47,248 nt of DNA. Source: a virus. The stretch lies in the IMG/VR virus record IMGVR_UViG_3300027902_000003, positions 1 through 47,248 of that record; one strand, written 5' to 3'. Under the pieces are notes generated by a model. The model searched no databases and was not told where the DNA came from. It saw only the letters and a program-made list of their open reading frames with translations. Shown piece by piece: positions 6,821 to 22,396 of this stretch. Position 1 is the first letter of the stretch, and each line of letters starts with the position of its first letter. The position numbers and the translations under genes were made by a program.

Positions 6821-9174
6821 TGCCAACGCTTCGCATTCCTGTCTCGCAGCCGACGAATCAGCGTGGCACCGGATTTCTCATCAATCGGGACGCCTATCGC
6901 TCGAACGTGATGGACGAGGTCTATCAGGACAAGATCTACACGGTGAAGCGCCCCGGCCTCGCACTCACCCAGGCGCTGGGCTCCGGTACCGGGCAGGGGA
7001 TCGTCAACTACGGAGGCATCTTCTACGCCGTCATTGGCGACTCGTTGAAGGCCTCGGCTGCAGCACCGGCCAGCGGGGCAACCGGAGCGACCTGGGCCAA
7101 CATCGGCAATGCCCCGTGGTCAGTGCGGACTGTCTCCGGTGTCGTGGTCATGGGCGGCTCGATGTACGTCATGGCCGGATACTCGGTTGTGAGTGCCGCC
7201 GATGTGGTCTACAACGACGTGTGGTCCTCGGTCGATGGCATCAACTGGACGATCTGTGCTTCCTCTCCGCCATGGAGCGGACGCGACGGCTTTGCCTCAG
7301 CGGTGCTGAACGACAAGATCTACATCATCGGTGGCGAGGACGTGGCCGGCAATCGCCTGAACGATGTCTGGTCCTCGCCCGATGGCACGACATGGACTCA
7401 GGAGACAGCGGCGGCGGCATTCTCGAAACGCTGCGCCATGGGTTGTCTGTCGACCAACAACGGCATCTACATCTTCGGTGGCCGCGACACGACCAAGACC
7501 GGGACCAACGGACCCTTGGCCGACATCTGGTATTCGTCCGACGGTTCCACGTGGAACAACCTGCAGATCAATGGCACCTCGTGGAGTGCGCGATCGCACG
7601 TTGCGGTGTTCTTCTACAACAACGTTTTCTACCTTGCTGGCGGGCTCGAGGGCGCAAGCCCAGGCACTGCCGTCAACGATTGCTGGTCGTCACCCAACGG
7701 CCAGACGTGGACCAAGATCGCAAACGCACCCTTTCCGTCAGCGCGGTACATCCCCGGCTATGCCGTCTACAACAAGAAGATGTACCTCGTTGGCGGATTC
7801 GGCGCAGCCGGCGCTCTCGGAGATGTCCTGTCTTCTACCGACGGCATCACCTGGACGGTGGTGACTGCAGCGGGGCAGTTCGGACCCAAGGGCTTCACGC
7901 CGATGGTGGTCTTCCGCACGCCGACCTCGGTCAGCGCCAAACGCTATGACACGATGTGGTTCTGCGGTGGGGTGTCGACTGGCCCGACGACCTTCTACAA
8001 CACCGTCTACTACGCAGTGCTCGACATCGTTGCGCCGACGACCAATGCCTTGGCGCCTGCCGTTGCCGGCCAGCCGTTCCAGTTCAACTCCTTCGTCGAG
8101 GGCACCAAGCTCCTGGTCAAGAACCAGTGTGGCCTCTGGATCTGGGATGAGGGCGGGGTCACCAAGGTCACCGACGTTGGCTACCCAGCAACGACGGTGC
8201 CGGGGCTGGTGGTGCTCGGCGCCTCGGCCTACGTCATGGACCCGACGGGGCTGATCCGCAACTGCGTGCTGGACGACCCGTATCAGTGGCCGTCACTGAA
8301 CGCGCTCGGGGCTGACTACGCCGATGACCCGGGTGTGGCGATCGCCAAGTATCAGAACTATCTGGTGGCGTTCGGGACGTACACCATCCAGTTCTTCTAC
8401 GACGCCGGGGTCAATCCTGGGAGCCCGCTGCTGCCGTATCTCAACTCGAACATGAAAATTGGTTGCGCTGCAGCATCAACAGTGGCCGAGGTTGGCAACA
8501 CCTTGGTCTGGGTATCGCAGACGCAGCAACTCGAGCGGCAGGTGATGGTCTTCAATGGCCTGCAGCCGACACCGATCTCGACTCCGTTCATCGACAAGAT
8601 CCTGAGCGAGGCCAACCAGACCAACATCAACGGCATGGCGATGGGAGTCGACGGGCATCTCTTCTACCTGTTGAGCGTCACCGACACTTACGGCAACCCA
8701 CAGACCCATGTCTATGACTTTTCGACCAAGAATTGGTATCTCTGGGATACGGGTGGTTTTCCCACAGGATTCCGGTTTGCCGGGTATTGCATCAGCTATG
8801 CACCCAAGGGCTACTATTTGCTAGGGGCTACAGATGGCAACATCTATAACGTCAGCACTAACTATTTGAACGACAACGGCAATCCATTTCGCGTGTCAAT
8901 TCAGACCGACAAGTTCGATGCCGGCAACAACCGCACCAAGTTCTGGGGGCAATTCGAGGTTATCTGTGACAAAAATCCTGGAACTGCGTCCATCTACTTT
9001 AGTGATAATGACTACAACAGTTACAGCGCGCCGCGCACCGTTGACTTGAACACGCCGCGCCCGATCCTGTATCGCAATGGCGCAAGTCGCAATCGTGCAG
9101 TTTATTATGAGCAGACAGACTCCAATCCGCTGCGCCTCGAGGCTTTCGAGATCACCTACGAGCAGGGGCTCTGA
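6820..9174 (+). CDS. P22 gp10-like DNA stabilization protein with Kelch insert
   Basis: A 784-residue protein; P22 gp10 has about 470. The N-terminus (residues 1-50) and the C-terminal half (about 390-784) have the gp10-type tail hub look. Between about residues 105 and 385 lie at least five Kelch-type repeats, each a DVWSSxDGxxWT strand followed by an IYIIGG, IYIFGG, FYLAGG or MYLVGG strand, predicting a beta-propeller. The start at 6820 overlaps the adaptor stop (TAATG); an upstream in-frame start at 6757 would overlap that gene deeply. It would plug the head and may display a carbohydrate- or protein-binding propeller. Confidence 0.75.
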   Translation: MPTLRIPVSQPTNQRGTGFLINRDAYRSNVMDEVYQDKIYTVKRPGLALTQALGSGTGQGIVNYGGIFYAVIGDSLKASAAAPASGATGATWANIGNAPWSVRTVSGVVVMGGSMYVMAGYSVVSAADVVYNDVWSSVDGINWTICASSPPWSGRDGFASAVLNDKIYIIGGEDVAGNRLNDVWSSPDGTTWTQETAAAAFSKRCAMGCLSTNNGIYIFGGRDTTKTGTNGPLADIWYSSDGSTWNNLQINGTSWSARSHVAVFFYNNVFYLAGGLEGASPGTAVNDCWSSPNGQTWTKIANAPFPSARYIPGYAVYNKKMYLVGGFGAAGALGDVLSSTDGITWTVVTAAGQFGPKGFTPMVVFRTPTSVSAKRYDTMWFCGGVSTGPTTFYNTVYYAVLDIVAPTTNALAPAVAGQPFQFNSFVEGTKLLVKNQCGLWIWDEGGVTKVTDVGYPATTVPGLVVLGASAYVMDPTGLIRNCVLDDPYQWPSLNALGADYADDPGVAIAKYQNYLVAFGTYTIQFFYDAGVNPGSPLLPYLNSNMKIGCAAASTVAEVGNTLVWVSQTQQLERQVMVFNGLQPTPISTPFIDKILSEANQTNINGMAMGVDGHLFYLLSVTDTYGNPQTHVYDFSTKNWYLWDTGGFPTGFRFAGYCISYAPKGYYLLGATDGNIYNVSTNYLNDNGNPFRVSIQTDKFDAGNNRTKFWGQFEVICDKNPGTASIYFSDNDYNSYSAPRTVDLNTPRPILYRNGASRNRAVYYEQTDSNPLRLEAFEITYEQGL

Positions 9175-10059: not shown

Positions 10060-10932
10060 ATGGCCCTCACCATTCCCGGCGCCAACACAGGTGGTTCTGG
10101 AACGATTGGAACCGGAGATCTGCTCACCCAGTTCTACGATCTCATTTCCGGCGTCAGCGGCAAGGACATCAATCGCGCCAAGGAAGCGGCGTCGTTGGCC
10201 GATCCCTTTGCCTCGCAGCGAGGGCAGTATCAGCAACAGTTGCAGGGGCTGCTGACAGATCCCAGTTCCTTCAAGACCGATCCCGGCTATCAGTTCGCTT
10301 TGGGACAGGGGCAGGAGGGAATCAGCCGCGCCTCGAACGCTCTCTATGGAACGCAGCGCACCGGGCACCTCGCGCCGGAGCTCGCCAAGTTCACCGAGGG
10401 CTATGCCAATCAGGCCTACAGCGATCGTATCAATCAGTTGATGCAACTGTCGGGAGCGAATACCGGATCGCCGGCTGCGGCGGGACAGTTGCTTGCCGGA
10501 GGATTTGCCAACCAGGACAAGTCTCTGGCCGGTGGAGCGGCAGGAGTTGGCACTCTGATTGATCTGTTGATGCAGGGCGCTGGAGCCGGATCAGGCGGGA
10601 TGCTTGGATATATCAAGTCTCTCTTGAGTGGCGGCGGCGGTGGTGGTGGCGGATTGCCGACGCTCATCCCCCCCGGCTCGACGACTGATGCGTCTGGGAA
10701 TGTCTTCGACCAGAGCGGCAATCAGATCGGGACGATGGGGCAAAACGGACAGATGGTTCCGAACTATCCGACGCAGGGCGGTATCAACATCGGAGGAACT
10801 GATCCATCTCTTGATCCGACTCTTGGCAGTCCGGGCATGGGGGAGTATCAGCCAGATCTCAGTGGACTCGGTGGAGATGGAGGGATTGATCTCAACAGCA
10901 TCGTCGGCAGCTACGACATCGGTCTAGGCTAG
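10060..10932 (+). CDS. Ejection/internal virion protein candidate II (290 aa)
   Basis: A 290-residue protein. Residues 40-130 contain segments typical of an internal virion family seen beside P22-like necks (DPFASQRGQYQQQLQ, then DPGYQFALGQGQEGI). A Gly-rich membrane-active-looking stretch covers about 135-200, and the C-terminus is Gly/Asp-rich and disordered. The start ATG at 10060 has AGAGGTTGAT upstream. Probably ejected or packaged with the genome; this is inference from context. Confidence 0.6.
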   Translation: MALTIPGANTGGSGTIGTGDLLTQFYDLISGVSGKDINRAKEAASLADPFASQRGQYQQQLQGLLTDPSSFKTDPGYQFALGQGQEGISRASNALYGTQRTGHLAPELAKFTEGYANQAYSDRINQLMQLSGANTGSPAAAGQLLAGGFANQDKSLAGGAAGVGTLIDLLMQGAGAGSGGMLGYIKSLLSGGGGGGGGLPTLIPPGSTTDASGNVFDQSGNQIGTMGQNGQMVPNYPTQGGINIGGTDPSLDPTLGSPGMGEYQPDLSGLGGDGGIDLNSIVGSYDIGLG

Positions 10933-10940
10933 GAGCCATC

Positions 10941-12191
10941 ATGCCTCTCACCCAGAACCTATACGACCTGCTGCAGAGTCAGGCGAACATACAAGACACT
11001 CGCGCCCAGACTGAGCAGAGGCAGTTGTCTGCAATGGCACTGAAGCAGCAGATGCAAGAGCAGGACATGAAGATGAAGGAGCGGGACGCGACCAAGCAAG
11101 TGCTCATGCAGACGCTTGCTGGTGGTCCTGCGGCTCAAGTCGACAAGTCGCTCGATCCGGCAGAAACCGATACGACCATCATTGCCGCCAAGAAAGAGAT
11201 CCAGCGGCTGCGGATCGAATCGCAGCAGAGCTCTAAGATGGCACAGGAGATACTCAAGGCTGGCGGCAGCATGGAAGCGGCAGAGCAGTATCGCAAGGAC
11301 GCAATCAACGCCACCTCTCGCGCTGGACTTGCTCAGTCGCGCCTGCTGAACGAGCAGAAGACGGTAGCGCAGGAGATCGGTGGGATTGCCGGCACAGCCA
11401 ACAGCGACGACAAGGCCGGCAACTTTGAGCTTGCCGCCAATCGCATCAAGGAACTCGACCCTGACCTCTACAAGCGCCTACCGTTCGACAAGGACGTGAT
11501 GGGCAATCCGGTCTGGGGCAACACCTCCAAGCAGACCATGGATTCCCTGTTCAACTCGTCCATGACCTCGGCGCAGCAACTGGATCGACAGATCAAACTG
11601 ACTGACCAGCAGCGCAAGGATCGAGAAGAACAGCTTCGCGCCGAAGATCAGAAGCGCAAGGACAGGTTGACTGACGCGCAAATCGCCAAGCAGCTTTCAG
11701 GCGTGGCTAAAGATGAAGCACAGACAGCAAAGTACAAAGAGCAGACTGGCGAGCAGAAGGCCAAGGCGCAGCGCCTAGATCAGATGGCGGCGAAGCCGGC
11801 CACTCCTGCGCTCAAGGAATCGGCCAAGCAGGTGGCAAAGACAGCGTTCCCCGACGAGAAGTTCGATTCGTCGCTCGATGCCTTTGCTGCTGACGTTGCC
11901 GATCGCGCCAATCGTATTCGCTCGGAAGCATTTCGCGCCGGAGATGAGATCGGTTTGGATGAAGCGCGGCAGCAGGCGATCGACGAACTGAAGCCGTTCG
12001 TGACCAGAAAGGTCGAGAAGAGATGGTTCGGCGCCGACATCGTCACTCGCAGCTATAGTCAAGCCGGCAAGCCCACCACGGGAGAGAAGGCAGCGCCCGC
12101 ATCTAGCGTGCAAGATGGAACGGTCATCGTCAACAAGGCGACGGGCGAACGCAAGGTGATGAAGGACGGGCAATGGCAGACAGTTCAGTAG
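10941..12191 (+). CDS. Ejection/internal virion protein candidate III, coiled coil (416 aa)
   Basis: A 416-residue, very hydrophilic protein rich in Gln, Lys, Glu and Ala. Two long coiled-coil regions are apparent (about residues 10-150 and 205-290), with repeated QxxKDRxxQLxxE-type heptads. There is no enzyme motif. GGAGCCATC lies just upstream of the ATG. It overlaps the next gene by 19 bases. It could be a structural rod of an ejectosome or a scaffold for the large protein that follows. Confidence 0.6.
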   Translation: MPLTQNLYDLLQSQANIQDTRAQTEQRQLSAMALKQQMQEQDMKMKERDATKQVLMQTLAGGPAAQVDKSLDPAETDTTIIAAKKEIQRLRIESQQSSKMAQEILKAGGSMEAAEQYRKDAINATSRAGLAQSRLLNEQKTVAQEIGGIAGTANSDDKAGNFELAANRIKELDPDLYKRLPFDKDVMGNPVWGNTSKQTMDSLFNSSMTSAQQLDRQIKLTDQQRKDREEQLRAEDQKRKDRLTDAQIAKQLSGVAKDEAQTAKYKEQTGEQKAKAQRLDQMAAKPATPALKESAKQVAKTAFPDEKFDSSLDAFAADVADRANRIRSEAFRAGDEIGLDEARQQAIDELKPFVTRKVEKRWFGADIVTRSYSQAGKPTTGEKAAPASSVQDGTVIVNKATGERKVMKDGQWQTVQ

Positions 12192-15100
12192 CATTGCCGG
12201 AAGGCTTCGAGCTCGAGGGCGCTCCACCCTCGGGCACCGACTTCAAAATCCCCGCCGTTGGTACGCCTGCCGGCGCCGCATGGAAGATCCCGCCTGAAGT
12301 GCAGCAGGAGCGCGATCGCGTGCGTCTGTCCATGCTGAACAAGGAGCTTGCCTCGGAGAAAGATCCGAGAGTCCAGACCGCGCTCAACAAAGAGATCGCC
12401 CAGACTGAGAAGAAGGTCGGCCCCAGCAAGAAGCCTGCTGCTGCGCCGACCATTCCCGAAGGGTTCGAGATCGACAAGGCGGAGCAACAGAAGGGATTCA
12501 TCCAGGAGTTTGGTGACGCCATCTCTGGCATCGACATGAAGAACAATGTCTTTGCCCGACTCACTTCGATCTCGAATGAGCGATCGGAGATCAGCGACAA
12601 GATCAACAAGAGTGATGCCTATCGCGCAGAGCAGAAGCGCCGGGAGTTGGCGGGTGAACGGTCGTCCGACTATGCCATGATCGACTGGGTCAAGGAGCGG
12701 GTCGACAAGGAATACTCCAAGCGGCATCAGAAGCCCGATGAGAAGGACGAGTCGATCGGACAGATGTTGCATCAGACAGCGCAGGCCGCACTCAATCATC
12801 CTGGCATGGTGGCCGGCGAACTGGTCAAGGCCGCAGTCGAAGACCCGGAACTCTTCCTGATCCCAATGAACTGGGAGCTCGGACTGGCTCGAGTTGCCAG
12901 CAGAGCAGGAGCCGCCGTCAAGGCTGCGGCACGCACGGCAGAGGTCGGAGCCTTGGGCGGAGCAATGCAGGCACCGATCAGCGCGGTACAGCAGTACCAG
13001 GAAACGGGGAAGGTCAGCGGCGAGAAGGTGGCGAAGGAAGCGGTCGTTGCCGGCGCGTCCATGGCCGCGCTTCATGCCGGCGCCAAGCTCGGGCTCGAGG
13101 CTATCGCCAAGGACAAGGGCACCAAGGTCAAGGCCGAGAACGTCGAGCAGGCGATCGACTCCGTCAAGGAACAGGCGAAGACTCAGGGCATCACCGAGTC
13201 AGATGCTCTGAAGTCCCTGCTCAAGAACATGGACCTGCCGCCGGCAGAGGCCGAGGCCATTGGCGAAGCGGTCAAGCCGCACACCGATCCCAAGCCCAAG
13301 GCAGTAGAGCCTCCTGCCGAGAGCCCGGTCGCCTCTGCTGTCGTCCGCATGGGTGGCAAGGAGTACGAAGCGCCCAACCATGTGCTGGCGCTGAAGCAAG
13401 CGATGGCCGAGGGCATGGTGCCGAAGGACGCGCAGGGTCGGGTGAAGTTGAATCCTGGCGACACTGCGAACCTGTTCAAGCTGAAGGATGGTCGCATCGT
13501 CACCCGCGATGAAGTGGGCGAGATGATGGGCGGGGCCAAGCGCACCGAGGACATCGCGGTCAAGGTCAAGGATCTGCGCGAGGCGGCGCAGGAACAGAAG
13601 ATGAAGACGGAGCCGCTGCTCACGCGCACTCCGTTGCCGACCGACTTCCAGCGGGGCAGGATCGATCCGCGCCTGCTCGCCGGCATGGGGTTGGTTGGAA
13701 CTGGAGCGGCGGTCGGCTACCTGTTCGACAAAGACCCGGTGCAGGCAGTCGAGGGTGCGCTTGCCGCAGGCGGCGTGATTGCTGCCGGCAAGGTGCTGGG
13801 CAAGATGGTCGGTGGCATGGGCAAGCTCTACGATCATTACCTTGCCGACACTCGTTATCGCATCGACAACCTGACGGAGCCCTATGCCGGCAACGTTGCC
13901 TCGGGTGAGCTCGCCGCCTATCGCGTATCCGAGGGCGTCAAGGCGCTGGTCAAGGACAAGAAGCTGCGCGAGGAGATGACGCACGCCATGCAGTCCGGTG
14001 ACCTGACCAAGCTCTCGCCGGAAGCCCGCTCCGCCGCGCAGGAACTGCAAAAGGCCTACGAAGAGATCGGTAAGCGTGGACAGGCGGCAGGCATCTTGCC
14101 CGACGAATTGCTCGAGAACTACGTCACCCAGCTATGGGTGCCCGGGCTCAACTCCAAGGAATCGTTGTTGACCAACCTGCGTCAGGCAATGAAGGCGCGG
14201 CCAGATCTCGCTCCTGGCATGGCGCCGCGCTCGCGCTTCGGAATGCAGCGATCGATCCCCGACTACAAGTCCGGCATGGATCGCGGTCTGGTGCCGGTGA
14301 CTCTGGACGCGGCAGAGATCTTTCGCATCTACGCCAACAACGTCAATAAGGCGATCCAGAACAAGAAACTGATCAACGCGCTGGAGAAGGACCGCACCCC
14401 ATGGGGCGAGCGGGTCATGGTCAAGGATGCTCCGGACGCCATCCAGCGCGAGATCTTCAAGCGGCAGGCGATCGCTGCCGATCAGATCGGACTCGATCCC
14501 GCTGCCAAGCAGATGATCCAGGAGACATCGGTCATCCGGGCGCCGCGCGAATACAAGACCATCAACCATCCCCAGTTGCGCGGGTACAAGGTACATCAGG
14601 ATGTGGTCGCTCCGCTGAAGGCGTTGTTCGATGCGGCGGATGCCAATGCCGCCACCAGGGCGGCGTATGCGGTATCGGTTGCTGCCAAGCGCGGGCTGTT
14701 CTCGTTCTCGCTCTTCCATGCCAAGTCCCTGCTCGACGCTTTCCTCGGCACCCCGCTCGCCGGCTGGAAGAAACTCCCCGGCGTGATGGGGCAGATCAAG
14801 GGCGGCGCGATGGGGGACGCCGTCGACCAGCTGGTCAAGGCAGGGCTGAAGATTGTCGAGAAGCCGATAGAGGCCGATGTCGGGCCGCTCTCCAATGCAA
14901 TGAAGTTGATCGAGTCCAAGTTCCCCGTAGCAGGATTCCCGGTCAAGGGTGTGCGTTGGGTGCAGGAGCATCTCGACCATCTGCTGTGGAATGTGATCCA
15001 TCCGTCGTTCAAGACAGCATCAGCCCTGGCTCTGTACGAGAAGGGTATCCGCAAGCAGCCCAACGTGCCGAAGGAACAGGTTGCCAAGCAGGTGTCGTCA

Positions 15101-15856
15101 GCGGTCAACGACATCTTTGGTGGGCTCGACTGGTATCGCATGGCCGATGGCGTGCAGAACAAGTACGGGCGTGATCTGGCGCTTGCGCTGACCAGCCCTT
15201 CGGGTCGGCGCTTCATGCAGATCGCCATGCTTGCTCCCGACTGGACGGTGGCGACGACGCGAGCGATGGCGAAGGCAATCCCCGGCGTGTCGGAGAAGGC
15301 GATTGGCGACATCCATCGTGGCTATGTGCTGCGCTCGGCCTTGCTGTATCTGATGGTTGGCAATGCGCTCAACAATCACTTCTCGGGACACAATCTGTGG
15401 GAGAACGAAGACCCAACGATGGTGGACCTGGGCGATGGTCGGCGTCTGCAACTGTCCAAGCACTTCATGGAGCCGGTACACTGGCTGACCAAGCCGGGAC
15501 AGCAGGCGATCAACAAACTGGGCTACGTCATCAAGGAGCCGCTCGAGCAGGCCTTTGAAAAGCAGTACCTGTCGACCAAGGGCGCTCCGCCCATGGACAC
15601 CTCGGTTGTCGGCAGAGTGAAACACGCCGTAGGATCTGCGTCACCGATCCCGTTGCAGAACCTGATGACCGATCCAGGTGCCGCTGCCGCTGGCGTGGTT
15701 GGGCTTCCGATCTATGGTAAGACTGAGGATCAGGCAGCGGCATTGGCGGTCGAGAAAGCACTTAAGCTGGACAAGGACGCCGCCCGCGCCGAGAAGCGGG
15801 TGCGGAGTCAGTACGCGAAGAAACGCAAGAAGCAGCAGGAGCGCGAAGAAGAATGA
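12173..15856 (+). CDS. Large internal virion/ejection protein (1227 aa)
   Basis: The longest gene in the window. The N-terminal 110 residues contain two copies of a short motif (LPEGFELEGA and IPEGFEIDKA) with a Pro/Lys linker. Residues about 190-300 are Ala-rich and helical, with a Gly-rich hydrophobic stretch near 500-550. The C-terminal half is mostly helical and ends in a Lys/Arg/Glu-rich tail. I see no transglycosylase or other catalytic motif. Such very long proteins at the end of podovirus tail operons are usually ejected into the host to span the envelope or protect DNA; that is inference. Confidence 0.65.
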   Translation: MADSSVALPEGFELEGAPPSGTDFKIPAVGTPAGAAWKIPPEVQQERDRVRLSMLNKELASEKDPRVQTALNKEIAQTEKKVGPSKKPAAAPTIPEGFEIDKAEQQKGFIQEFGDAISGIDMKNNVFARLTSISNERSEISDKINKSDAYRAEQKRRELAGERSSDYAMIDWVKERVDKEYSKRHQKPDEKDESIGQMLHQTAQAALNHPGMVAGELVKAAVEDPELFLIPMNWELGLARVASRAGAAVKAAARTAEVGALGGAMQAPISAVQQYQETGKVSGEKVAKEAVVAGASMAALHAGAKLGLEAIAKDKGTKVKAENVEQAIDSVKEQAKTQGITESDALKSLLKNMDLPPAEAEAIGEAVKPHTDPKPKAVEPPAESPVASAVVRMGGKEYEAPNHVLALKQAMAEGMVPKDAQGRVKLNPGDTANLFKLKDGRIVTRDEVGEMMGGAKRTEDIAVKVKDLREAAQEQKMKTEPLLTRTPLPTDFQRGRIDPRLLAGMGLVGTGAAVGYLFDKDPVQAVEGALAAGGVIAAGKVLGKMVGGMGKLYDHYLADTRYRIDNLTEPYAGNVASGELAAYRVSEGVKALVKDKKLREEMTHAMQSGDLTKLSPEARSAAQELQKAYEEIGKRGQAAGILPDELLENYVTQLWVPGLNSKESLLTNLRQAMKARPDLAPGMAPRSRFGMQRSIPDYKSGMDRGLVPVTLDAAEIFRIYANNVNKAIQNKKLINALEKDRTPWGERVMVKDAPDAIQREIFKRQAIAADQIGLDPAAKQMIQETSVIRAPREYKTINHPQLRGYKVHQDVVAPLKALFDAADANAATRAAYAVSVAAKRGLFSFSLFHAKSLLDAFLGTPLAGWKKLPGVMGQIKGGAMGDAVDQLVKAGLKIVEKPIEADVGPLSNAMKLIESKFPVAGFPVKGVRWVQEHLDHLLWNVIHPSFKTASALALYEKGIRKQPNVPKEQVAKQVSSAVNDIFGGLDWYRMADGVQNKYGRDLALALTSPSGRRFMQIAMLAPDWTVATTRAMAKAIPGVSEKAIGDIHRGYVLRSALLYLMVGNALNNHFSGHNLWENEDPTMVDLGDGRRLQLSKHFMEPVHWLTKPGQQAINKLGYVIKEPLEQAFEKQYLSTKGAPPMDTSVVGRVKHAVGSASPIPLQNLMTDPGAAAAGVVGLPIYGKTEDQAAALAVEKALKLDKDAARAEKRVRSQYAKKRKKQQEREEE

Positions 15857-16005
15857 AGATGCCGGAGTTCGAGTCGTTCGAGGAGGAGTTCACCGGCTTG
15901 CCGCACAGCGACGAGCGGATCAGCTTCGACCCGGATGAGGAAGAGCCCTGGGATGAGATGGTGCAGTACGGGGAAGACGAAGACGACGACGAAGACGACG
16001 AGTGA
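15853..16005 (+). CDS. Extremely acidic small protein (50 aa)
   Basis: A 50-residue protein in which 24 residues are Asp or Glu and only two are Lys or Arg. The last ten residues are all acidic (EDEDDDEDDE). It is coupled at both ends, by ATGA with the large internal protein and GTGA with the ATP-grasp gene, which supports it as real. Phage proteins of this composition include DNA mimics and inhibitors of DNA-binding host proteins, or histone-like partners. No family is recognised, so any such role is speculation from charge. Confidence 0.7.
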   Translation: MKMPEFESFEEEFTGLPHSDERISFDPDEEEPWDEMVQYGEDEDDDEDDE

Positions 16006-17330
16006 ACATCCTAATTCTCGATGCTACAGGATCTGCGGTAGATTTTTCTCTCCGCTGCATGAAGGCGGGGCATCACGTCCGGGTCTGCATGGCGTATGAC
16101 AAGGAAACGAAGCAGCGCCGCATCATTGGCGATGGGCTCGTAGAGAAACTGGAGCGGGAAGAATGGCAGAGATCTGCAAGCTGGTCCGACCTCATTATGA
16201 CGACGGACAATGTGAAGTGGCTGCGCGAGCTGGACGTTTATCGCAAGCGCGGCTACCCAGTGTTTGCGCCCTCCTACGAGTCGGCGGAGCTCGAGCTCGA
16301 TCGCAACAAGGGGCAGCAGTTCCTGTCCAAGTGTGGGGTCAAGACCATACCGTTCCAGATGTTCAGCGACTATCGCACGGCGGGAAAGCACGTCATCGCA
16401 AGGTCGGAACGCTTCGTCAGCAAGCCCAACGGCGACAAGGATAAGGCGCTCTCCTACGTCAGCAAGAGCCCTGCCGATATGCTGTTCATGCTCCGCCGCT
16501 GGCAGGAGAAGAACAAGGGCGTCGGCCAGTTCATGCTGCAGGAGTTCGTCCCGGGCGTGGAGTTCGCCGTCAATGGCTGGCTCGGCAAGGAAGGCTTTGC
16601 TTCCTACATCGAGGAGTCGTTCGAGCACAAGAAGCTGATGGCCGGCGACGTTGGCCCCAACACCGGGGAGATGGGCACCGCCATCAAGTACGTCAAGGAC
16701 TCGGCGCTCGCCCGTGAGATCCTGCTGCCGCTAGAGCGCGGGCTGATCAAGATGGGGCACACCGGGTCGGTGGATGTCTCCTGCATCGTAGACGAGAATG
16801 GCGACCCACGCCCGTTGGAGTTCACCTCCAGGCCGGGGTGGCCGGCATTCAACATCGTGCAGCCACTGCACCCGGACCCCTGCGAGTGGATGGTGCATCT
16901 CCTGGACGGGGAGGACAGCTTCATGCCGCTGACCGATCATGCGATCGGGGTGGTGCTGACCATACCGCCGTTCCCCAACGACAAGGTCGTCCTGAAGGAT
17001 GTGTCCGGGGTGCCGCTCTATGGGATGGACGACGAGAACCCCTACCGCGAGATGCTCTGCCCGTGCGAGGTGATGTCGGGCGAGGCGCCGGCCATGGAAG
17101 GCGACGAGCTCCTGGAGAAGAAGCGGCTGATGGTGTCAGCCGGCGCCTACTTGGCTGTGGCCGTGGGCCTGGGAGAGACACTGGGCGAGGCGCAGCGGGA
17201 GGCCTACAAGGCGGTCGACTCGCTCGAGGTGCCGCAGAACCTGCAGTACCGCACCGACATCGGGGACAAGATGAAGAAGGATATCCCTTCGTTGCAGTCG
17301 CACGGCTTTGCCATGGAGTGGCAATACTAG
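16002..17330 (+). CDS. ATP-grasp ligase, PurD (GARS)-like
   Basis: A 442-residue ATP-grasp enzyme. It shows an N-terminal Rossmann-like strand (MNILILDATGSAVD), a central ATP-grasp fold with FVSKPNGDKDKALSY (ATP-binding Lys), MLQEFVPGVEFAVNGWL, then GPNTGEMGT, the hallmark block of glycinamide ribonucleotide synthetase. The metal-binding end is PLEFTSRPGWPAFN. PurD ligates glycine to phosphoribosylamine; the phage enzyme may join an amino acid to another amine, for example in a modified base or surface sugar. It starts at GTG 16002, overlapping the acidic protein stop. It ends the + arm, and its TAG shares a CTAG with the opposing gene. Confidence 0.8.
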   Translation: MNILILDATGSAVDFSLRCMKAGHHVRVCMAYDKETKQRRIIGDGLVEKLEREEWQRSASWSDLIMTTDNVKWLRELDVYRKRGYPVFAPSYESAELELDRNKGQQFLSKCGVKTIPFQMFSDYRTAGKHVIARSERFVSKPNGDKDKALSYVSKSPADMLFMLRRWQEKNKGVGQFMLQEFVPGVEFAVNGWLGKEGFASYIEESFEHKKLMAGDVGPNTGEMGTAIKYVKDSALAREILLPLERGLIKMGHTGSVDVSCIVDENGDPRPLEFTSRPGWPAFNIVQPLHPDPCEWMVHLLDGEDSFMPLTDHAIGVVLTIPPFPNDKVVLKDVSGVPLYGMDDENPYREMLCPCEVMSGEAPAMEGDELLEKKRLMVSAGAYLAVAVGLGETLGEAQREAYKAVDSLEVPQNLQYRTDIGDKMKKDIPSLQSHGFAMEWQY

Positions 17331-17545
17331 CGCAGCAGATCCTTCGCTCCGCAGCGGGCGCAGACGTAGACCTTCTGGTTGATCATGTGCCAGAAGCCGT
17401 AGTGGACCTTCACCACCCACTCGTGGCCGTCGTGGCAGCGGTTCTTGGGGCAGATGTAGCGCCCCATGGGCTTGCCGGTGGCCTCGTCGAACATCCCCGT
17501 CTTCTCGATCGCCTTCTTCGCCCCGCAGATGCGGCAGTACTTCAT
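17327..17545 (-). CDS. Small zinc-ribbon protein (72 aa)
   Basis: A 72-residue protein with CRIC near the N-terminus, a central CPKNRC plus His (CHDGHEW), and a C-terminal CARC, suggesting two interleaved zinc sites. It is the last gene of the long minus operon and is coupled to the upstream HTH gene by ATGA. Its stop TAG is the complement of the stop of the convergent ATP-grasp gene. Probably a nucleic-acid or protein-binding adaptor; function unknown. Confidence 0.7.
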   Translation of the reverse strand: MKYCRICGAKKAIEKTGMFDEATGKPMGRYICPKNRCHDGHEWVVKVHYGFWHMINQKVYVCARCGAKDLLR

Positions 17546-17787
17546 AGGATCTTGTGCTCCGGGTCACGCCACTCTGGGTGTTGATGGGCTTGTTTCTTGA
17601 ACTTGTTGAGCAGCATCTCGATCTGCCGATTGACGCTCTCGGTCGCCGCTTCCGACTTCGGCTCCCCGCCCCGGCAATAGCGGCGGATGGTGGGCAGCGA
17701 GATGCCGAAGGCCAACGCAAGCTCGGTCTTGGGCATGAGCCGCATGAGCTTCTGCAGGCCGGCGCGGTCGAGCCTACGGCGGGTCAT
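17542..17787 (-). CDS. Helix-turn-helix protein (81 aa)
   Basis: An 81-residue protein with a helix-turn-helix pattern at about residues 17-40: KTELALAFGISLPTIRRYCR. The rest is basic and helical. I chose the ATG at 17787 because it overlaps the upstream stop (ATGA); longer in-frame readings are Arg-rich and look out of frame. It may be a small regulator of the phage or host. Confidence 0.65.
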   Translation of the reverse strand: MTRRRLDRAGLQKLMRLMPKTELALAFGISLPTIRRYCRGGEPKSEAATESVNRQIEMLLNKFKKQAHQHPEWRDPEHKIL

Positions 17788-17975
17788 TTGATCCCTCGCT
17801 GCCGCATGATCTCGGTCTGATTGACCCAGACGTTGCCGGCGATGTCGCGATGAAAGCCCTCGTGCCCGCGCTGCAGCACGCAGCGGTGCTCGATGACGAT
17901 CATGCTGCCAACGGAGTCCCGCACCGGCAGAATGTCCGGGCACTGGCGCGGGTCGAAGACTTTGATGATGGTCAT
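17784..17975 (-). CDS. Small His/Cys protein (63 aa)
   Basis: A 63-residue protein. The segment HRCVLQRGHEGFHRD carries closely spaced His and Cys residues, with another Cys at residue 12, a pattern seen in small phage zinc-binding proteins of unknown role. The start at 17975 overlaps the stop of the endonuclease gene (ATGA), and its stop overlaps the next start. Confidence 0.65.
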   Translation of the reverse strand: MTIIKVFDPRQCPDILPVRDSVGSMIVIEHRCVLQRGHEGFHRDIAGNVWVNQTEIMRQRGIK

Positions 17976-18475
17976 ACAGGAATCCTGTACGGGTCTTGCG
18001 GTGCCGAAGGGCCGACGTTGACTCCGGTCAAGTATGCAACGGCACGCTGCAAAATTAGCCGACTGTCTTTGAAGTGCCCAATTCCAGCATTGCAATGATG
18101 GCAGAGTAGCGCCCTGACTTTCCCGGTGATGTGATCGTGATCAACGTGTAGCTGATAAACCTTGCCGTTCCTGCTTCTTGTTTCCGGCTTCCCGCAGATC
18201 TTGCATACCCCGCCTTGCGCGAGAAGCATGGACTCAAACTGGTCGATGGAGAGTCCATATTTCGCAAGCAAGGCGCGATGTCTCTGCTGGCGCGGATTGT
18301 TTGCGTGCCACTCTTTGGATCGGTTCCGGTATGTCTCTGCGTTCTTCGCGTAATACGCATCCCAATACGACTTCCCGCATGGGCGACATCTGGTGTCGAG
18401 ATTGTCCTGATAGGCGGCGTTTCTTCCGAACGAATCTTCTGGAAGCTCTTGCTTACAGACGCGGCACGTTCTCAT
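17972..18475 (-). CDS. Endonuclease VII-type HNH nuclease
   Basis: A 167-residue protein with a clear recombination endonuclease VII domain: CKICG, then LHVDHDHITGKVRALLC with the His-Asp-His core, then HHCNAGIGHFKD, at about residues 95-140. The N-terminus has a CRVCKQEL zinc knuckle and CRPCG. T4 endonuclease VII resolves branched DNA; freestanding relatives scattered in phage genomes are often homing endonucleases. It sits in the minus operon with ATGA overlaps at both ends, unusually tidy for a homing insertion. Confidence 0.85.
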   Translation of the reverse strand: MRTCRVCKQELPEDSFGRNAAYQDNLDTRCRPCGKSYWDAYYAKNAETYRNRSKEWHANNPRQQRHRALLAKYGLSIDQFESMLLAQGGVCKICGKPETRSRNGKVYQLHVDHDHITGKVRALLCHHCNAGIGHFKDSRLILQRAVAYLTGVNVGPSAPQDPYRIPV

Positions 18476-19743
18476 ATTTCTACCAACCCAGGCTGTCGTT
18501 GACCTTTCAACGCCACCAGATCAGCGTAACCGCAGATGATGTTGTGCGTTTTGTACCAGTCGTTCGGATGATTTGCCCAGACCCTGTTCAACTGGAATCT
18601 AGCGTTGTTGCCTTGAATGAATCGCGCCTGTTCCTGTCGACAGTAGTACCACCAACTGTTCGGCACGTTCCAGAACGAGCAGTGCGTAGGATCTTGAAAT
18701 GCTCCGCGACCGTCAGTGCTTGGAACCATCGTCAGCAACCATCCTCCGGGCGCCAAGACCCTGTAGCATTCATTGATGAACCCAACCGTGCAGTATGGCT
18801 TCTCGTGCTTGCAGGTCGAGTCCCGGCAGTGGGGGATGTGCTCGAGGAAGTCGTAGGCGCGGAGCACCCCAACGGAGTTGTCCTTGAACGGGAGCCCCTG
18901 CATCACATTGCAGTTGACGTTGGCGCCGTCGAGGTCGACCGAGAGGTAGCCTTCCTGGGTGCCGCGCTTGGCGCCGAGGTCGTACTTCGGGAGTCCCTTG
19001 CGCCGGCACCATTCGTAGATCATGGAGTAGATGTACTTGTTGCTCACCTCCTGCTGCTTGGTCTGGATCTCGGCGTTGCGCTTGACGTAGGTGTTGCTGC
19101 CATCGGAGTGCAGGCGGTAGAGGTAGAGGCATTCGGGGATGTGGGCGAACTCCACGCCTGCCAGATAGGTACGACAAACGAGATCGTAGTCGTCGCAGAT
19201 CTCCATCGAGGGAGCGTAGCCGCCGGTCTTTTCGTAGGCATCTCGGGTCCAGGCGCGAACGTGGTTGGGGGCGAAGAAGATGGCGGCGAGCGAGGAAGCG
19301 TCAGTCTCGAATGCACGATGGGCGGTGTAGCCGCCGAAGGGATAGCTCTCCCAGCCGAAGACTTTGTCGTAGACCTCGCAGGTGCCGTTCTCCCTGAAGT
19401 TGGCGAAGTCGGAGTAGACGAACCCGGCACCGCGATCGACGGCCTCGCCAATCCTCTGCAGCGCGTGTGGCTCGAGCAGGTCATCGTGGTCGAGCTCCAC
19501 CAGGATGCTGCCCTCGCAGTGGGAGACAGCGATCTGTTTCAGCAGGCCCACGGCCTTGACATCGTTCATGCCGACGGCCACCCGCACCTGCGGATCGTTC
19601 TTGATGTCGATCGGCACCGTGCCGCCGTTGTTGGGCAGGATCACCCACTCCCAGTCCTGGTTGGTCTGTTTCAGCAGGGTCTTGTACGCGGCTTCGAGGA
19701 AGTCGGGGCGATGGGTCGGGGTGAAGATGGAGAATCTAGGCAT
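18472..19743 (-). CDS. GT2 glycosyltransferase-methyltransferase fusion
   Basis: A 423-residue two-domain protein. Residues 1-240 are a family 2 (GT-A) glycosyltransferase: FSIFTPTHRPDFLEAAY at the N-terminus, the DHDD metal-binding motif in ILVELDHDDLLEP (near residue 85), and GGYAPSMEICDDYDL as the acceptor-side acid block. Residues 250-423 look like a SAM-dependent methyltransferase: YLSVDLDGANVNCNVMQGLP, then LRAYDFLEHIPH, then ECYRVLAPGGWLLTMVPSTD. A second methyltransferase lies just upstream. Substrate unknown: DNA, phage protein or host surface sugar. Confidence 0.8.
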   Translation of the reverse strand: MPRFSIFTPTHRPDFLEAAYKTLLKQTNQDWEWVILPNNGGTVPIDIKNDPQVRVAVGMNDVKAVGLLKQIAVSHCEGSILVELDHDDLLEPHALQRIGEAVDRGAGFVYSDFANFRENGTCEVYDKVFGWESYPFGGYTAHRAFETDASSLAAIFFAPNHVRAWTRDAYEKTGGYAPSMEICDDYDLVCRTYLAGVEFAHIPECLYLYRLHSDGSNTYVKRNAEIQTKQQEVSNKYIYSMIYEWCRRKGLPKYDLGAKRGTQEGYLSVDLDGANVNCNVMQGLPFKDNSVGVLRAYDFLEHIPHCRDSTCKHEKPYCTVGFINECYRVLAPGGWLLTMVPSTDGRGAFQDPTHCSFWNVPNSWWYYCRQEQARFIQGNNARFQLNRVWANHPNDWYKTHNIICGYADLVALKGQRQPGLVEI

Positions 19744-20245
19744 TGGGCTTCCTAAGTAGGCAGAAGGAGTCTCTCCAGACTCCGAAGTTGTTCATTCCGA
19801 CCTCGAGCATCTCCAGGTTCGCCCACTTGGCGAGGGCGACCCAGCCGTCGGGGAGGATGCGCCAGCAGTCGACGGGATAGCGATGGATGAGCGGCGTGGT
19901 GGGGGCGATGATGGCAGCGAGCCCTCCGGGCTTCATTGCCTTCTCGATCTCCTTGATCGTAAGCCACGGCCAGTTGATGTGCTCGAAGGCCTGCCCGGAG
20001 ATGACGAAGTCGTAGGTGGAGGGGAGCTTCCAGTCGTAGGCGTCGACGGTGACGAGGTCGACGTTCGGTCCCGGCTCGACATCCAGCCCGGTGTACGCAT
20101 AGTTCTCGTTGAACAGGATCTTGTAGGTGGCGTGCCCCTCGTGCGATTGAGAGCCGACATCGAGCACGGTGATGGGGGTGTGCGTGAAGTGGCGCCGCGT
20201 CTTGACGACGAAGTTGGACATCAGGTCCATCGACTCAGCGTGCAT
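19736..20245 (-). CDS. SAM-dependent methyltransferase
   Basis: A 169-residue class I methyltransferase. Motif I is VLDVGSQSHEGHATYK (about residues 26-41), the acidic end of strand 2 is GLDVEPGPNVDLV, motif IV is YDFVISGQAFEHINWP, and the post-motif is KPGGLAAIIAP. The short C-terminal region and HRYPVDCWRILPDG segment match methyltransferases found with sugar-modification genes rather than DNA methylases, which would have a DPPY/NPPY motif. AGGAG precedes the ATG. It overlaps the glycosyltransferase fusion by 8 bases, suggesting a shared pathway. Confidence 0.85.
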   Translation of the reverse strand: MHAESMDLMSNFVVKTRRHFTHTPITVLDVGSQSHEGHATYKILFNENYAYTGLDVEPGPNVDLVTVDAYDWKLPSTYDFVISGQAFEHINWPWLTIKEIEKAMKPGGLAAIIAPTTPLIHRYPVDCWRILPDGWVALAKWANLEMLEVGMNNFGVWRDSFCLLRKPNA

Positions 20246-21636: not shown

Positions 21637-21875
21637 TTCTCCTCCGGCAGGTAGTATTCGGTGATCCACTTGCCGTTGGACTTGTAGTGGTCCTTGCGGA
21701 TGTCGTAGCCCTCCTGCTTCAGCTCCAGGATGCGGGCGGCGAGCCGGAAGCAGCCGAAGAGCCGCAGGGCGGCGATCGGCGTCAGCCGGCGATGGAACTT
21801 GAGGTAGCGCAGAATCAGCTGGTTCTGGGTCATGCCCTTGACCATCACGTCCTCGAGCACCGGGATCGGGTTCAT
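21633..21875 (-). CDS. Winged-helix/HTH-like protein (80 aa)
   Basis: An 80-residue protein. The segment QNQLILRYLKFHRRLTPIAA followed by LRLFGCFRLAARILELKQEG and then KWITEYYLPE matches small winged-helix domain proteins common in phage and prophage early operons. These are DNA-binding folds. The start at 21875 has AGGAGG close upstream. It overlaps the homing endonuclease gene stop by 4 bases. Confidence 0.7.
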   Translation of the reverse strand: MNPIPVLEDVMVKGMTQNQLILRYLKFHRRLTPIAALRLFGCFRLAARILELKQEGYDIRKDHYKSNGKWITEYYLPEEK

Positions 21876-22396
21876 GCGGTCCTCCTAGATCTACCATGTC
21901 GCCTGTTCTTGTCATAGGCTCTCTGGCATTGAAGGTGCCACGCATTGCCCTCGTTACACTTCATTGAGTCAGGAGGGCTATATTTTTGGCAGAAGGAGCA
22001 ACGTCGCCAATTGGCGTTGCCGCAAGCCAACATTGAATCCGTTCTTCTGTGCAGCAGGTGGTGATACTTTGTGCTTGGACAAATAACCAAATTCTCGTTT
22101 CTATTGTCGGAGCGATTGCCGTTGACGTGGTGAACCACGGCCCGAGGAGGCAATTTTTTTCCTAGAGCTTTTTCCGCTATCGAAACGTGCTCTCTTTTTC
22201 TGACGCCGTATTTAGTCATCACGATATATCCGCAAGAAACGCCCCCTGTTCCGCGCTCTCTCCTCCGAATGATGAGCGGGTCGCCATAAACACTCCACCT
22301 CCAGTAGTGCTTTGCACACAACCCCCTAGACAAGTGCTTCTTTCCACAATCAAGAACAGAGCATACAAAAGCTATTCTGGCAGGCATGACTCTCAC
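21872..22396 (-). CDS. HNH homing endonuclease I
   Basis: A 174-residue protein. The N-terminal zinc module has C-x4-C then SRGLCAKHYWRW (about residues 12-34). The HNH core is VVHHVNGNRSDNRNENLVIC (about residues 90-110), the signature of free-standing phage HNH homing enzymes, and a C-terminal zinc ribbon carries CGNANWRRCSFCQK. It is a close paralogue of the gene at 25027-25527. Base composition is visibly more AT-rich than its neighbours, a sign of separate transfer. It is inserted between the NinB-like and winged-helix genes. Confidence 0.9.
   Translation of the reverse strand: MRVMPARIAFVCSVLDCGKKHLSRGLCAKHYWRWSVYGDPLIIRRRERGTGGVSCGYIVMTKYGVRKREHVSIAEKALGKKLPPRAVVHHVNGNRSDNRNENLVICPSTKYHHLLHRRTDSMLACGNANWRRCSFCQKYSPPDSMKCNEGNAWHLQCQRAYDKNRRHGRSRRTA

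Follow-up and report, generated by a model that had tools for sequence, protein, structure and literature searches.

Locus and protein

The window, meaning the whole stretch of 47,248 nucleotides of IMG/VR virus record IMGVR_UViG_3300027902_000003, carries at positions 16002-17330 of the plus strand a GTG-started gene for a PurD-like ATP-grasp ligase of 442 amino acids, here called PurDL, identified by matches to Pfam GARS_A and, under its cut-off, TIGR00877 and by an AlphaFold2 model. It is the final plus-strand gene of the late arm, whose genes on this strand belong to the virion (terminase, portal, major head, head closure Hc3, DNA ejection). The ligase gene and a 72-residue open reading frame (ORF) on the minus strand (17327-17545) converge, their stops overlapping tail-to-tail. 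A sequence-only reading had placed an ATP-grasp, PurD-like ligase at the end of the late arm, facing a fusion of a family 2 glycosyltransferase (GT2) with a methyltransferase and a separate methyltransferase. This layout was confirmed: the ligase contains GPNTGEMGT and matches GARS_A with 33 bits (cut-off 27), and the minus strand encodes the 423-residue fusion (18472-19743; PF00535, PF08241) and a 169-residue S-adenosylmethionine-dependent methyltransferase (19736-20245; PF08241, PF13489).

Upstream of the ligase lie, all on the plus strand, the head closure Hc3/stabilisation protein gene (6757-9174; phrog_578, E 2e-34), a gene for a 290-residue protein with a weak DNA ejection match (10060-10932; phrog_598, E 2.3e-4), one for a presumed ejection-module protein of 416 residues (10941-12191), so named by position, and the final large gene of the virion operon (12173-15856), whose 1227-residue product is presumed from its position to be an ejection or internal protein and matches nothing in PHROG or Pfam. 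A very acidic ORF of 50 residues (15853-16005, plus strand; net charge about -22) separates this gene from the ligase, overlapping each by 4 nucleotides.

PurDL has the fold of GARS, the PurD enzyme, over its whole length. The AlphaFold2 model (mean predicted confidence, pLDDT, 94.3) retrieves only GARS structures among the top 15 Foldseek matches, and VIA structural Z scores against GARS are 31-35 over 377-399 residues, covering the N, A, B and C domains, while those of the next families (PurK, PurT, PylC) are about 23-25. No close relative of the model was found in a viral structure library, and PADLOC, searched for a defence role, gave no match. The ATP/Mg frame formed by K141, K148, E187, K210, E273 and R277 is common to PurDL, the 28 true PurDs compared and the cellular paralogs described below; PurDL thus belongs to the ATP-grasp enzymes, with the ATP-binding lysines, the acidic Mg ligand and the catalytic Arg set in the fold. 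These are among 102 residues conserved at 95% or more across 82 sequences.

The substrate motifs of PurD are, in contrast, lost. Motifs were counted over 130 distinct phage sequences, 49 cellular paralogs and 27 PurDs. The PROSITE signature PS00184 (R-[LF]-G-D-P-E-x-[EQIM]), replaced in the window by RPGWPAFN, is found in 25/27 PurDs and in none of the phage sequences or paralogs; the N-terminal loop GxGGREHA is present in all PurDs and is likewise missing from both other groups; the Mg-ligand Asn is kept in 27/27 PurDs and 0/130 phage sequences. Conversely, TGExG occurs in 129/130 phage sequences and 39/49 paralogs and in no PurD, and E-x-T-x-R-x-G in 128/130 and 48/49, respectively. GPNTGEMGT, taken in the sequence-only reading for the GARS block, is therefore a deviation from it, the canonical loop being GPNTGGMG, with Glu in place of Gly. 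Relative to the 28 true PurDs, the N-terminal GxGGREHA and GPE loops are altered, and the changes from Salmonella PurD to PurDL include E187 to Q180, D214 to E208, G229 to E223, Y271 to D258, N288 to T275 and D293 to W280, at positions that we take to serve phosphoribosylamine, glycine and Mg binding in the PurD family. GARS_C is matched at 29.2 bits, under its cut-off of 34.8, and the TIGR00877 equivalog model gives 80.9 bits for PurDL and 72-90 bits for its phage relatives, short of the cut-off of 288. Judged from these sequence features, PurDL is very probably not a GARS; with the signature substrate motifs gone, the purD label is probably wrong and the enzyme a ligase of another substrate.

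Distribution and genomic place

A search with an alignment of four relatives found the ligase encoded in 261 IMG/VR stretches, and a search with a 20-member alignment in at least 555. Full-length relatives with 42-75% identity reside in 80 fetched contigs, so that the ORF is not a product of chance. The carriers are podovirus-type phages. Among named phage records, the sole full-length close relative (43% identity) is an unannotated gene of the uncultivated Myoviridae sp. ct2os315; among bacterial genome contigs, the ligase was found in phage contigs binned into metagenome-assembled genomes and in one long contig of the cultured Glaciimonas immobilis DSM 23240. The latter holds an apparently complete prophage of about 55 kb (G001:C29, about 170.2-224.8 kb; loci L502-L504 and L089), with integrase-, repressor-, terminase-, portal- and lysis-like genes recognized by inspection. 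Its ligase is 44-48% identical to the others and retains the 4-nucleotide overlap; the stabilisation protein matches the compared set weakly, and no similarity to that set was detectable for its terminase, portal and ejection genes. The host also encodes a normal, full PurD (559 bits).

Cellular paralogs close to the phage family were found in 33/97 genomes of Halobacteria and in 18/93 genomes of one class of Patescibacteria. They score 353-460 bits with the phage-family profile, true PurDs 37-157. In a midpoint-rooted FastTree phylogeny, an analysis that the sequence-only reading had proposed as a check, phage ligases and cellular paralogs group together (support 0.986) apart from PurD (1.0), the phage clade alone being supported at 0.64. 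By sequence, then, the phage ligase sorts with the PurD-like paralogs of Halobacteria and Patescibacteria rather than with PurD.

In 83 loci compared, which are partly redundant and whose genes were called by a simple script, the ligase is encoded on the same strand as the virion genes and almost always stands between the final large ejection-type gene, directly upstream, and lysis genes or the N-terminal module of a tail fibre. Ejection names are mostly positional; they are supported by a transglycosylase SLT domain in the gene two places upstream of the ligase in one locus (L081) and by weak phrog_598 matches of the gene three places upstream. The upstream gene and the ligase overlap, stop on start, by 4 nucleotides in 51/108 non-redundant loci, and by 1 nucleotide in 6 more, a frequency that suggests translational coupling. 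As an ascertainment control, loci were also scanned from the head-closure/stabilisation protein, a virion marker independent of the ligase. Within the near clade, the ligase follows 4.6-6.8 kb downstream in 41/41 decidable loci; the lone apparent exception ends within the upstream gene, and a further 38 loci do not extend far enough for a decision. More distant marker loci are divided, 17 having the ligase and 18 lacking it despite at least 8 kb of downstream sequence. Within its clade the ligase is a core gene, but not all related phages have it.

Whole records were compared for 13 genomes with the ligase and seven without. The ligase is the sole family found in 13/13 of the former and 0/7 of the latter; the 290-residue phrog_598-type family (10060-10932 in the window) occurs in 13/13 and 2/7 genomes, and the remaining families present in at least nine of the 13 match or sit inside the structural block. 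No replication, nucleotide or modification enzyme is common to the 13 genomes. The ligase is single copy in 15/15 records. The final ejection-type gene encodes about 1490-1875 residues in six ligase-less relatives (L363, L375, L384, L407, L408, L410), and about 500-1300 in most carriers. No conserved C-terminal target motif was seen in the upstream gene, a comparison made by eye on few sequences and with no formal test.

Small acidic ORFs such as that of the window are found directly 5' of the ligase solely in two close relatives (L094 and L096). They measure 50, 37 and 36 residues in the window, L094 and L096, respectively, the first and last sharing FDPDEE.PWDE.VQ. In this subclade, the ligase may have the product of the ORF as its partner or substrate. 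The minus-strand arm includes three HNH/endonuclease VII-like genes, at 17972-18475 (PF02945, 76.5 bits; phrog_2633), 21872-22396 and 25027-25527, possibly homing endonucleases. A collagen-like tail fibre protein of 882 residues, matching many tail-fibre families, is encoded at 42354-45002 on the plus strand.

Possible roles

Our favoured, though tentative, reading, which we put a little short of an even chance, is that PurDL is a divergent PurD-family ligase, distinct from GARS, which joins another carboxylate-amine pair late in infection and most likely modifies a virion component or acts at entry. It would activate a carboxylate as an acyl-phosphate with ATP and couple it to an amine, the pair differing from that of GARS. 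Produced late along with the ejection proteins, it would most likely modify an ejection or tail component of the virion; alternatively, it may be carried in the particle and act at DNA entry. The particle-side part draws on the place after the ejection gene, the 4-nucleotide overlap, the 41/41 loci and the 13/13 versus 0/7 distribution, and it is favoured by the Glaciimonas prophage, which retains the ligase even though its terminase, portal and ejection genes are no longer detectably similar. Taken by itself, some link to the particle is rather probable; confidence in any named substrate is low. Several points weigh against this reading. Eleven of the ligase-less records of the wider scan have no ligase anywhere, and since related phages do without it, the ligase is not required for such a particle as such. 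The paralogs of archaea and Patescibacteria are cellular and show that this chemistry is not necessarily tied to virions. Operon position tells timing, not target, and the association with the particle is predicted from gene position and coupling. Finally, the conserved Mg-ligand Asn (N288 of Salmonella PurD) is Thr (T275) in the window.

The strongest competitor, less probable but far from negligible, is that the ligase acts late on a soluble host metabolite (for example a cell-wall precursor, a nucleotide or a polyamine), serving as an accessory or exclusion factor that is encoded between the final ejection gene and the tail fibre but has no connection to the particle. Cellular paralogs occur apart from virion genes, several of them near polyamine genes, and the corresponding site of P22 holds accessory genes such as sieA; yet accessory genes are usually gained and lost, whereas the ligase is in every decidable near-clade locus, in single copy, and often coupled translationally to the upstream virion gene. 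A catalytically dead, structural or scaffolding PurD relative would account for the coupling to the ejection gene and for the replaced Mg-ligand Asn, but seems improbable given the 102 conserved residues, ATP lysines, acidic Mg ligand and catalytic Arg included, and the same residue pattern in the cellular paralogs.

Two further proposals are very hard to sustain. The sequence-only reading had the ligase share a product, such as a modified sugar, a surface glycan or a DNA base, with the facing GT2 and methyltransferase genes. These adjoin the ligase in the window, in convergent orientation, and both are near it in L007 as well, with a GT-like gene in L005; but the remaining 80 loci have no such genes close to the ligase (3/83 in all, L005 and L007 being relatives with 75% identity), they belong to the opposite transcription arm, and no partner enzyme is common to the whole records, so that a modified-nucleobase pathway gains no support either. 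Synteny over the 83 loci led us to reject the shared pathway, now highly unlikely. Slightly less probable still is an ordinary GARS raising purine synthesis in infection as an auxiliary metabolic gene (AMG). Fold and GARS_A match speak for it; against it are the absence of PS00184, Mg-ligand Asn and GxGGREHA from 130/130 phage sequences, scores of 72-90 bits where the purD cut-off is 288, the full PurD (559 bits) already present in Glaciimonas, and the late place amid virion genes. A true GARS was rejected on motifs, purD score and host paralog. Of the earlier proposal, the doubt about ordinary purine synthesis thus stood, as did a possible role at the particle, and the product shared with the glycosyltransferase and methyltransferases fell.

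As to the amine, polyamine genes are found close to several of the Patescibacteria copies (S-adenosylmethionine (AdoMet) decarboxylase, spermidine synthase, pyruvoyl arginine decarboxylase, agmatinase). In the discovery set, an AdoMet or pyruvoyl arginine decarboxylase gene is within 5 kb of the paralog in 6/11 genomes having both, 0.2 being expected; the linkage had been noticed first and was tested afterwards. These loci are not independent, since they share a SecA/HPF/MurB neighbourhood: HPF, SecA, MurB/MurC-like and GNAT genes recur in L476, L479, L480 and L500, with one or the other decarboxylase in a comparable position. The linkage was not reproduced in ten further carrier genomes, of which the one with an AdoMet decarboxylase has it 33 kb off. 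In the fresh set, one locus (L501, 5338-11332, minus strand) has the PurD-like gene overlapping one that resembles carboxynorspermidine synthase (NF043000, 80 bits against a cut-off of 800) and, close by, a lysA/nspC-like decarboxylase gene, neighbours of a kind found at about chance level. Haloarchaeal neighbourhoods showed nothing recurrent except among related genomes. The polyamine link of the cellular paralog is a hint, and the case for a polyamine as the amine substrate is weak. It is doubtful that the phage ligase joins a carboxylate to spermidine, agmatine or a similar polyamine, be it on an ejection protein or on something packaged along with the DNA, and that the particle thus carries a covalent conjugate aiding DNA compaction or entry.

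Annotation and closest known systems

Since GARS_A is matched over its cut-off, annotation pipelines are likely to label the ligase purD, and virome studies count purD or GART of phages as purine AMGs (PMC11097641, PMC12043954, PMC11360552). In this large phage group, as far as sequence tells, a gene so annotated and counted is almost certainly something else, and phage purD calls need rechecking. Among the papers searched, none was found that connects PurD-like proteins with polyamines or with phage virions, and the place of such a ligase in phages appears to be undescribed so far. Behind that label stands a single-copy core gene associated with the DNA-ejection module; should its product indeed modify the particle, it would represent a novel type of enzyme for virion maturation or infection entry. 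A cultured strain in which to test its role is at hand in the prophage-bearing Glaciimonas immobilis.

Of the closest known systems, PurD/GARS itself (EC 6.3.4.13; TIGR00877; PDB 2YW2, 2XCL, 2QK4, 1GSO) has the same whole fold, C-terminal domain included, and shares the ATP lysines, the acidic Mg ligand, the catalytic Arg and the GxxTGxxG loop frame. It differs in being about 20% identical to the phage ligase, in which PS00184, GxGGREHA, the Mg-ligand Asn and the loop GG are replaced. PurK, PurT and PylC belong to the same superfamily and have the same domain order, but are structurally more distant (Z about 23-25 vs. 31-35 for GARS). A phage-encoded ATP-grasp protein with no assigned substrate is also known, by description, from the LUZ24-like cluster (UFV-P2 ORF28; PMC3890496); it differs in its length of 291 residues, its early region and the amidoligase and amidotransferase genes nearby. 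Also close are the haloarchaeal extra PurD-like proteins Hlac_1553 and rrnAC0307, which Brown et al. 2011 (PMC3261824), in a passage that makes no mention of phages, describe as lacking GARS_N, the Mg sites and the PS00184 Asp and judge not to be GARS. To go by that description, the Halobacteria paralogs found here, cellular and about 30% identical to the phage ligase, show the same losses, and Hlac_1553 and rrnAC0307 apparently belong to the paralog group of the phage ligase.

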